Positions 37,999-41,232 of a DNA stretch of 64,000 nucleotides are shown piece after piece. The stretch spans positions 248,001-312,000 of the forward strand of contig JAURFE010000002.1 of assembly GCA_030827135.1 (NCBI GenBank). The letters run 5' to 3'. The first letter of the stretch is position 1. Each line of letters starts with the position of its first letter. Origin of the DNA: Vicinamibacterales bacterium (GTDB lineage: Bacteria; Acidobacteriota; Vicinamibacteria; Vicinamibacterales; SCN-69-37). The position numbers were made by a program, and so were the translations under genes. The notes under the pieces are model-generated. The model was not told the DNA's origin. It searched no databases and worked only from the letters and a program-made list of their open reading frames with translations.

Positions 37999-40317
37999 TC
38001 AGGGCACTCTGGTAATGCGCAGATCAAACACGCGCAAGCTGAGTTGGCGGCGATCCGCGCTTTCACCTCGATCAGCGGGCACGTAGATGTCGGAGACTTC
38101 CAGCGTAATGTCGCCGCGGGCGGCCGCCAGTGCGGCGGCCGGCACCACCACAGACTCCGTGAAGTCGTCGCGGATGTGACGTCGTGCCACTTCGATGTCC
38201 CCGGCGCGCACGATCAGGTCCGTGCCCTTCGCGAAGTAGCGCGCCGGTGATTCCCCCGAGATCGTGAGCATGAGATCGCCTGGTGGAGCCGCGACTGTCA
38301 GATGCCCGACCCCACTCATCCAGCGCCACGACAGGCCGGTGCCCGGTTGCTGCTCGGGCTCATGCCACCCGCGCGCATACACCCACAACACGTCGTCGTA
38401 TGTCGCTGCGTCGAAAAACTCGAGCCCCACCGGGCGGCTGCGCGGTGTATTTTCAACACCGACCGACAATGTGGCGTAGGGCCCCTCCCCTGCAGGCACG
38501 CCTGACGGCAGGTCGATCCAGTGCAGGAAGTGGCGTTCAGGGGGAGTCACGAGCCATCGCCCGACCTCCTGCCCGTCAAGCCGTGCGACCAGCGTCTTGC
38601 GCGCAAAGCCATCAGTCCCCAGCTGTCGCCCGCCGATGACGACGCGCAGGGGTGCTGGATCACGGCGAAGGTACGCATGGGCCGGTTCCCGATGCGGGCC
38701 GAGGCCGAGCGCGGAGGTCGCGCCACCGATTTCAGGCGTCACCGCCCACCCGCGACCAAGCATCCAGCGCGGCGGCCCCACGTTCCACGCGTCCACATCC
38801 GCCGGCCGCGCGAGCGCCACGAGCCGTCGCGTGTCGGGATGCCAGGCGTACCGCGCATGCAGCCTGCGCGCACGGGCATCAATAAGCGCCAGATCGCGGC
38901 GCACCGGATTGGCCAGAAACCAGACCGGGCCCACGCCGCCCTGCCGCCAGTAGTCCACGACGGCCGCCACCTCACCACCCCACTCGGTAGGCAGGAGCCG
39001 GAAGGGCCAGGCCTCTCCCGCCCACACCACCGCCTGCCGGGCCTCCGATGCGACGCGTCGATGCATCCCCAGCGCGGTGGGTGGTGTCGGCGCGCCGGAC
39101 GGTACCCGGACGGTCGCCTCAAGATCGGCAAATGCGCGGAAGATGGGCGCACCCGCCGCGCCGTAGGCCGCCAGTGGCGGCTGGGCCACCCACAACGTCG
39201 CGGCGATCAGCGCGAGACCTGCGGCGATCGCCGCCGGACGTGCCAAGGCCGCAATCGCGACAATCGCTAGGGCCGCGGTCGGCACCACCATGGGCAGTGC
39301 ATACCGCAGCGTCGCGGTCTCCTGGAACGTCAGGTGAAACACGCAGTACGGCCAGAACGCGAGCACCAGCAACGCCAGGACGCCGCGACTGCGCGCAAAC
39401 AGGCGAAGGGTGCCCAGCGCCGCCAGACCCAGCACCACCCATGCGAGCGTCTCGTTCAGCCAGGGCGCGACAAACGTGCGCGACAACGCCTCGACAAACA
39501 GCGGCCACGACGGGCGCGTTGCCAGCATTTCAACGCCGATGAAGTCTTCAGCGCCCTGCGCCCCGAGCACGGCGAGATACGCGTCCCACCCGCCACTGAC
39601 GATCAACATGGGCACACACCACGCCAGCCCGCCCGCGGCACCACTCGCGACCAGACCCGCCACATCGCGCCAACGGCCTCGTGCCGCGAGTTCACCCGCG
39701 CACCAGCACAACAACGGGCCGGTCAGCCACATCGTCTGCGTGCGCAGACCGATAATCAGGCCCGCACCGGCCGCGGCCCACCACCAGACGGTCGGCGCCC
39801 CACCGGTCCCTGACGCTCGAAACAGCCGGAGCCCACTGAAGAACCCGGCCTGCACCGCAAGCGCGGCCACCAACCCGGGTACGTCGGTCAGGGGGCGACT
39901 GGCGGTGAGCCAGAACAACGGTGATGCCAGGGCAAGTACGGTCGCCAACAGCGACTGCGTCGGCGACAGGCCCACTGCCGACCACAAGGCGTGGAGCACC
40001 CACACCGCCACCACGGACGCCGCAATGCTCCACACGGCAAGGCCTGCTGCAGCGCGCTGGTCGCGCGACCACTCCGGGGCGAGCGTAGACACCGCCGCAT
40101 CAGACGCCTTGCCCGCCGCGATGTAGAGGGGATAGCCCGGTGGATGCGGGCGATGTTTCGACACGTCGAACGATTCGACGCCCAGGGCGAAGTTGACGGA
40201 GTCCAAATCCTCAAGTGTGGGCGGCAGCGCGGCGGCATGCGCCAGCGCCACGACCAACCCGATGACCGCGAGAAGACTTTTACTCGTCCCAGTCGTCGCC
40301 GTCGTCGTCGTCCTCAT
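37999..40317 (-). CDS. large polytopic membrane protein, GT39/GT-C-like
   Basis: 772 residues if started at ATG 40317, which lies inside the end of the LysW-like gene (38-base overlap); this is the only ATG that leaves the first TM helix (SKSLLAVIGLVVALAHAAAL) whole. About 10-12 TM segments to ~430, then a ~340-residue soluble C-terminal region with a probable beta-sandwich end. The first-loop acidic motif TLEDLDSVNFALGVESFDVSKH resembles the catalytic loop of GT-C glycosyltransferases, followed by RPHPPGYPLY. Probably a lipid-linked sugar transferase or similar envelope enzyme; substrate unknown. Confidence 0.7.
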   Translation of the reverse strand: MRTTTTATTGTSKSLLAVIGLVVALAHAAALPPTLEDLDSVNFALGVESFDVSKHRPHPPGYPLYIAAGKASDAAVSTLAPEWSRDQRAAAGLAVWSIAASVVAVWVLHALWSAVGLSPTQSLLATVLALASPLFWLTASRPLTDVPGLVAALAVQAGFFSGLRLFRASGTGGAPTVWWWAAAGAGLIIGLRTQTMWLTGPLLCWCAGELAARGRWRDVAGLVASGAAGGLAWCVPMLIVSGGWDAYLAVLGAQGAEDFIGVEMLATRPSWPLFVEALSRTFVAPWLNETLAWVVLGLAALGTLRLFARSRGVLALLVLAFWPYCVFHLTFQETATLRYALPMVVPTAALAIVAIAALARPAAIAAGLALIAATLWVAQPPLAAYGAAGAPIFRAFADLEATVRVPSGAPTPPTALGMHRRVASEARQAVVWAGEAWPFRLLPTEWGGEVAAVVDYWRQGGVGPVWFLANPVRRDLALIDARARRLHARYAWHPDTRRLVALARPADVDAWNVGPPRWMLGRGWAVTPEIGGATSALGLGPHREPAHAYLRRDPAPLRVVIGGRQLGTDGFARKTLVARLDGQEVGRWLVTPPERHFLHWIDLPSGVPAGEGPYATLSVGVENTPRSRPVGLEFFDAATYDDVLWVYARGWHEPEQQPGTGLSWRWMSGVGHLTVAAPPGDLMLTISGESPARYFAKGTDLIVRAGDIEVARRHIRDDFTESVVVPAAALAAARGDITLEVSDIYVPADRGESADRRQLSLRVFDLRITRVP

Positions 40318-40531
40318 CGTCGCCGTCGAGTTCCTCGACGTCGTCGTCCTCGCTCTTTTCCTCGTCGTCCTCTTCGTCTTCGTCGTCGACGTCGAACTCC
40401 AGGGGGTCGAGGACCGCGATGCGGAGGGTGCTGGCGCAGCCGTCACAGACCCAGGGGTCGCCCACTTCCATTTCTTCGAGGTCGTCTTCGTCGATCTCGA
40501 TTTCGATGTCACATTCCGGGCAGGTCGCCAT
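40280..40531 (-). CDS. LysW-like amino-group carrier protein with acidic tail
   Basis: 83 residues. A zinc-ribbon N-terminus with Cys4, Cys7, Cys29 and Cys32 (CPEC...CDGC), then RIAVLDPLEFDV, and a C-terminus ending DDWDE. LysW/ArgW carriers have the same order: CPEC, CxxC, LDPLxL, and a terminal EDWGE whose last Glu carries the substrate. Here a ~30-residue Asp/Glu-rich stretch is inserted before the end, and the Gly is Asp. Strong SD GGAGGAGA and a TATAAT box (40553-40558) precede it. No LysX/ArgX or LysZ/Y gene is adjacent, so the role is open. Confidence 0.6.
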   Translation of the reverse strand: MATCPECDIEIEIDEDDLEEMEVGDPWVCDGCASTLRIAVLDPLEFDVDDEDEEDDEEKSEDDDVEELDGDDEDDDDGDDWDE

Positions 40532-40552
40532 ACACTCTCCTCCGAGACCGCG

Positions 40553-40590: not shown

Positions 40591-41232
40591 ATGAGCAAGC
40601 TCGTTTTATTGGCCCATCGGGACGGCACGGTGCGTGACCGATTCGCCGCGGCGCTCGCCGATGCGCGCCACCAATATGTCACGGCTGCTTCACACGACCA
40701 CGCGGTGGCGGCCGCGGCGCGCCGGGACCCGGCGGTCAGCCTGGCCGTGATCGACGTGCGACTGCCTCCCGATCCGGTCGTGTGGATCCGGCAACTGCGT
40801 ACCGCGGCGCATTCGGCCCTTCCCGTGCTGGTGTTTGCCGGCACCGTCGGCGATGCGTCCGCCAGCCGCGCGTTGCTGTCGGCGGCCATTGCCGGATACA
40901 TCAATGACCATGCGGCCACGGCGCAGATCCTTCCCGCGCTGGCGCCCCATCTGTTTCCGTCGAGTTTTGACCGCCGGCTGTCGCCGCGCCAGGTGCTCAG
41001 CGTTCCGGTGTCCTATCGGTCAGGCAGCACGATTGCCGGCGCGGTCACTCTGAACGTGAGCCGCGGCGGACTCGCCATCCGCACGCTCAGCCCGTTGCCC
41101 TCGGGCGCTCCGATTGTGGTGAAGTTCCGCCTGCCGCCCTCTGCGACTGAAATCGAACGCGCCGGTCATGTGATCTGGTCCGACCAGCGCGTGGGCATGG
41201 GCATTCAGTTCGTTCAGGAACTGGACGACTAA
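40591..41232 (+). CDS. PilZ-domain protein with receiver-like N-terminus
   Basis: 213 residues. Residues ~1-115 look like a CheY-type receiver fold (KLVLLAHRDGTVRDRFAAAL; SLAVIDVRLPPDP holds the position of the phospho-Asp region; LPVLVFAGTV), but the acidic pocket is weak, so phosphorylation is uncertain. Residues ~120-213 are a PilZ domain with RRLSPRQVLSVPV (RxxxR) and LNVSRGGLAI (DxSxxG variant with Asn), which bind cyclic-di-GMP in many homologues. Likely a cyclic-di-GMP effector. Its stop overlaps the ATPase stop by 4 bases, convergent. Confidence 0.8.
   Translation: MSKLVLLAHRDGTVRDRFAAALADARHQYVTAASHDHAVAAAARRDPAVSLAVIDVRLPPDPVVWIRQLRTAAHSALPVLVFAGTVGDASASRALLSAAIAGYINDHAATAQILPALAPHLFPSSFDRRLSPRQVLSVPVSYRSGSTIAGAVTLNVSRGGLAIRTLSPLPSGAPIVVKFRLPPSATEIERAGHVIWSDQRVGMGIQFVQELDD

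Follow-up and report, generated by a model that had tools for sequence, protein, structure and literature searches.

The window, a stretch of 64,000 nucleotides from the genome of a Vicinamibacterales bacterium, carries on its minus strand at 40280–40531 a gene for an 83-residue protein in which a zinc-ribbon domain is joined to a long acidic tail. Judged by profile and predicted-fold comparisons, the domain is genuinely LysW-like. We propose, with a probability of roughly 0.45, that the protein is a LysW-derived adaptor or carrier that operates outside the LysX pathway and docks on a partner enzyme through its Trp-x-Glu (W-x-E) tip, the partner being LarE in most relatives.

The acidic-tailed gene and the fold of its zinc-ribbon domain

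The cysteines at positions 4, 7, 29 and 32, the LDPL motif (residues 41–44), the acidic insertion and the terminal DDWDE, all read from this frame in the earlier note, are indeed present in its translation, MATCPECDIEIEIDEDDLEEMEVGDPWVCDGCASTLRIAVLDPLEFDVDDEDEEDDEEKSEDDDVEELDGDDEDDDDGDDWDE, which runs to the stop codon. A globular zinc-ribbon domain spans residues 1–45 (40397–40531, minus strand), its four cysteine codons lying at 40520–40522, 40511–40513, 40445–40447 and 40436–40438, and the Cys columns are invariant across 22 sequences. It is followed by a hypervariable acidic tail (residues 46–78; 40298–40396), set apart by composition, variable length and low pLDDT, and by the C-terminal tip DDWDE, with Trp at -3 and Glu last (40283–40297), which is conserved in the window's family; Asp and Glu make up 29 of the 38 residues that follow DPLE. 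Just upstream of the open reading frame, on the same strand, lies a ribosome-binding site, GGAGGAG (40537–40543), that is kept by members of the genus. Of 60 relatives, 50 have a homologue, among them every one of the 14 genomes in the window's family, and dN/dS of the domain, calculated between members of the genus that lack larE, ranges from 0.05 to 0.21, which by sequence comparison indicates purifying selection on the globular domain. The conserved zinc ribbon and these ratios together rule out the possibility that an acidic, low-complexity frame was mistaken for a gene. One homologous copy (L011, in G004) contains an internal duplication in which CASTLRIAALDP is repeated, which is either real or an assembly error, and a match in another relative (G029:C32:229536–229751) was flagged with one TGA inside, perhaps because the gene there is broken or because the match overruns its stop.

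A LysW profile search was among the checks proposed in the earlier note. Taken alone, the window protein stays below the cut-offs of both models (18.8 bits against TIGR01206, cut-off 53.2, and 16.1 bits against PF21344, cut-off 27), but the family profile reaches LysW structures 3wwl at 3.2e-10 and 5k2m at 6.3e-9, and PF21344 and TIGR01206 each match every one of the 22 domain sequences at E<=0.1, with best values of 7.7e-16 and 3.7e-11, respectively. The AlphaFold model has pLDDT values of about 86–91 over residues 1–40, falling to low values in the tail, and its best five fold matches in the PDB are all LysW chains, at probabilities of 0.97–1.00 with E-values of only 0.03–0.25. Because the family matches, the profile comparisons with 3wwl and 5k2m and the fold matches agree, we consider the homology to LysW to be real; the suggestion that this is a zinc-ribbon protein merely resembling LysW is wrong with respect to the fold, as the likeness goes well past the Cys pattern.

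Absence of a LysX-type ligase and separation from LysX-linked LysW

LysW-type carriers function in lysine and arginine synthesis, where their partner is an ATP-grasp ligase; in lysine synthesis, LysW is the carrier that holds the amino acid. The window genome (3.24 Mb, 100% complete by the tool's estimate) yielded no match to TIGR00768, the LysX/RimK-type ligase model, over its cut-off, and its weak matches to the ATP-grasp model PF08443 were read by eye as CarB, AccC and PurD, with one further Ddl-like protein, which bears out the earlier statement that a LysX/ArgX partner is missing. The Ddl-like protein was rejected as a hidden ligase because its distribution does not match that of the gene: it occurs in genomes of family f4 that lack the gene and is missing from many that have it. 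Nor was a lysX-lysY pair found beside the gene, whose flanks are held by a PilZ-domain protein and a large overlapping gene. An orthodox LysW with a distant ligase was likewise rejected, there being no RimK-type ligase over the cut-off; scoring below the LysW cut-off, lacking the EDWGE end and encoded in a genome without a LysX-type ligase, the window protein is not an orthodox LysW. According to the earlier note, its reading would fall if the genome lacked such a ligase and the similarity to LysW stopped at the Cys pattern; the former proved to be the case and the latter did not.

The relatives show what a LysX-linked LysW looks like in this group. LysX is present in 7 of the 60, and these genomes encode a separate, short LysW ending in EDWGE beside LysX-LysY; in two relatives (G027 and G037), a second LysW-like match adjoins LysX. 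Among 80 named loci, all LysX-linked proteins are short and end in EDWGE, an ending found in none of the larE-linked ones. In a tree of 106 domains, which rests on few columns and has weak inner forks, a branch with 95/95 support parts all the LysX-linked sequences from the window's family and nearly all larE-linked sequences, the window protein falling on the latter side; the exception is a pair of identical larE-linked sequences (L239 and L140) that group with the LysX side. This supported split suggests that the acidic lineage of Vicinamibacterales (Acidobacteriota) is separate from LysX-linked LysW. Two loci of family f16 (L125 and L127) encode a second short LysW-like protein ending in DEDEE or DEEEG, located beside an ORF that by eye is STAS-like, with neither LysX nor LarE nearby.

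These results bear directly on the possibility that the protein remains an amino-group carrier of the LysW type, served by a ligase outside the LysX/RimK family, with the terminal Glu still receiving an amino compound. The LysW fold speaks for it, as does the retention of the W-x-E tip in 7 genomes of the window's family that have neither LysX nor LarE, but the lack of a RimK-type ligase over the TIGR00768 cut-off, the identity of the nearest ATP-grasp matches, the failure of the Ddl-like protein to track the family and the absence of an adjacent LysY all weigh against it, and we regard it as unlikely. The earlier, more general proposal of an amino-group carrier with a new use is possible: the terminal W-x-E is conserved beyond chance, but the lineage stands apart from LysX-linked LysW and is usually linked to larE instead.

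Linkage to larE and retention of the gene without it

Of 60 genomes in the order, 42 contain the LysW-like gene together with LarE, the nickel-pincer sulfur transferase, scoring over its cut-off; in 34 of the 42, larE lies within 96 nt of the LysW-like gene, many pairs overlapping by a few bases, and in the other 8 the two genes are not side by side. Outside Vicinamibacteria, most acidic versions do not adjoin larE. Acidic LysW-like genes from other acidobacterial families are followed by a gene for a small secreted CarboxypepD_reg protein (PF13620; L129, L131, L213, L217, L226, L229 and L232, with L131 below the Pfam cut-off). Two loci of f16, the sister family (L124 and L126), and two related named ones (L184 and L197) have short larE-linked proteins with WEE or WQE at the end, and that of L184, with a DDWEE-type end, scores above the LysW cut-off (58.2 against 53.2); from their sequences, these forms look intermediate between LysW and the acidic form. 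A locus labelled Bifidobacterium breve (L200) contains a LysW-like/larE pair of acidobacterial type, and the record is probably mislabelled.

The linked LarE proteins contain a CxxC motif and a distal Cys, the [4Fe-4S]-binding pattern of Thermotoga maritima LarE (PMC9283937). The same source describes TtuA as paired with TtuB, a protein carrying a C-terminal thiocarboxylate, and reports that T. maritima LarE works with L-cysteine and IscS alone (PMC9283937). By analogy, the LysW-like protein could be a sulfur or substrate carrier for LarE, with LarE either activating its terminal carboxylate or taking sulfur from it. The shared operon and the TtuA–TtuB precedent favor this scheme, but the self-sufficiency of the T. 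maritima enzyme, the persistence of the gene in genomes without larE and the missing tip in some larE-linked members make it very unlikely. Our literature search retrieved no paper describing a LysW-like protein as a partner of LarE, and nothing relevant on a LysW-LarE link or on LysW with an acidic tail.

The gene is retained in eight genomes without a LarE over the cut-off, every one of which belongs to the window's family; LarC1 is absent from all eight, and LarB from the window genome (G000), where the LarE model gives weak matches (about 1e-5; 25 bits, the cut-off being 150) to proteins other than LarE. These eight genomes contradict a role as an obligate LarE accessory, and as the window bacterium keeps the gene without LysX or LarE, the protein there probably has another job. 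Elsewhere, larB, larC and larE are clustered away from the LysW-like gene on two contigs (C318 of G005 and C17 of G011), possibly re-acquired after loss, and four larE-linked genomes (G010, G012, G020 and G057) have larE and larB, with LarC1 not found at E<=1e-20; because LarB is present in them, we do not conclude that LarE acts there independently of the nickel-pincer nucleotide (NPN).

In the window, the place held by larE in relatives is occupied by the gene of a large protein (37999–40317, minus strand), the downstream neighbor of the LysW-like gene; 8 further loci have a homologue of it, in most cases placed downstream of larE. The previously noted 38-base overlap holds if this gene starts at ATG 40317, a putative start. 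Its description as membrane GT-C-like is unsupported, since at E<=0.001 the protein has no match in Pfam or NCBIfam. The divergent neighbor (40591–41232, plus strand) is a PilZ-domain protein (PF07238, E=2.9e-12) whose N-terminal part resembles, by eye, a response-regulator receiver, and it is common to 18 of 21 loci, the window included.

The W-x-E tip and a model for its use

The tail consists largely of Asp (0.51) and Glu (0.30), with almost no Trp, and varies in length. We compared tip counts with those obtained from shuffles of each tail. In the window's family, Trp stands at -3 in 13 of 13 proteins, where shuffling gives a mean of 0.3, and Glu is last in 12 of 13, against a mean of 3.3; close kinship inflates these counts, but the remainder of the tail has changed freely. 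Among seven larE-less genomes of the family, both residues are kept in 7/7. Across larE-linked and window-family proteins combined (n=71), Trp is at -3 in 42 (against a shuffle mean of 1.6 and a maximum of 7) and Glu is last in 61 (against 22.9 and 37), and thinning to below 80% domain identity leaves the signal in place (16/29 and 24/29, respectively). The W-x-E tip is thus conserved beyond tail composition in the window's family, and the window genome keeps this LysW-like end while having neither LysX nor LarE. Some larE-linked members lack the tip and end in DDDE, DYD or LDE. Proteins not linked to larE show no clear excess of Trp at -3 (3/33); in these other families, an aromatic residue falls near the end in 16 of 33 (shuffle mean 7.6, maximum 17), or in 14 of 20 after thinning (mean 6.9, maximum 13).

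Acidic-tailed single-strand DNA-binding proteins employ an aromatic tip as an anchor. The window protein might similarly be a general acidic zinc-ribbon protein, a nucleic-acid mimic or a binder of basic proteins anchored by its aromatic tip and having no carrier role. The variety of neighbors over the phylum (larE, CarboxypepD_reg proteins and, in the window, the large overlapping gene) fits this explanation, as do the often aromatic tips in other families, at about twice the shuffle mean, but the larE linkage is tight and widespread in one order, and the tip of the window's family is specifically W-x-E, as in LysW, rather than any aromatic ending, so that we judge it somewhat unlikely.

Under the adaptor or carrier reading that we prefer, a partner enzyme would grip the protein by its zinc ribbon and recognize it by the conserved Trp-x-Glu tip, and the tail, being long, flexible and negatively charged, would correspond to a lengthened swinging arm of LysW. 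In most of the order, the partner would be the PP-loop enzyme LarE, a predicted [4Fe-4S] protein whose gene forms a tight operon with that of the LysW-like protein; in the window's genus, the nickel-pincer pathway would have been lost and the LysW-like protein retained for another client. We infer both LarE binding and the role of the tip as a docking or carrying site. The LysW fold, the score below the LysW cut-off, the absence of LysX, the distinct EDWGE-ending LysW of genomes with LysX, the separate clade, the larE linkage, the intermediate-looking short forms, the Cys pattern of the linked LarE, the conservation of the tip and the purifying selection that continued after loss of larE, larC and larB argue for this reading; against it, linkage is not interaction, 8 genomes hold both genes apart, some larE-linked members lack the tip, most acidic versions outside Vicinamibacteria do not adjoin larE, and the window genome yielded no client. 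A bolder version seems to us decidedly unlikely: that Acidobacteriota recruited the LysW fold to provide a PP-loop sulfur transferase with a protein-bound carrier or delivery arm, which in the genus of the window now serves a further enzyme via the same tip.

If the preferred reading is true, a widespread LysW paralogue is tied to a PP-loop sulfur transferase and keeps its tip after loss of the partner, which would mean that the carrier principle has been reused. The LysW-like protein and LarE form a concrete, testable pair, and annotation of acidic LysW-like proteins as the LysW of lysine synthesis should be avoided.

Among known systems, LysW/ArgW (TIGR01206, PF21344; PDB 3wwl, 5k2m) shares with the window protein the zinc-ribbon fold, the Cys pattern, the DPL motif and an acidic C-terminus ending in W-x-E; the window protein differs in having about 30 extra acidic residues and DDWDE in place of EDWGE, in lacking a LysX/LysY partner, in scoring below the equivalog cut-off and in belonging to a separate clade. 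The LarE/LarB/LarC pathway to the nickel-pincer nucleotide is connected through larE, the usual neighbor of the LysW-like gene in the order, but all three components are missing from the window genome. With TtuB/TtuA, the likeness lies in the combination of a small protein with a PP-loop [4Fe-4S] enzyme, here confined to the larE-linked relatives and with the cluster predicted; the carrier site of TtuB is a C-terminal thiocarboxylate, whereas the LysW-like protein is a zinc ribbon that ends in W-x-E and whose role in sulfur transfer is putative.
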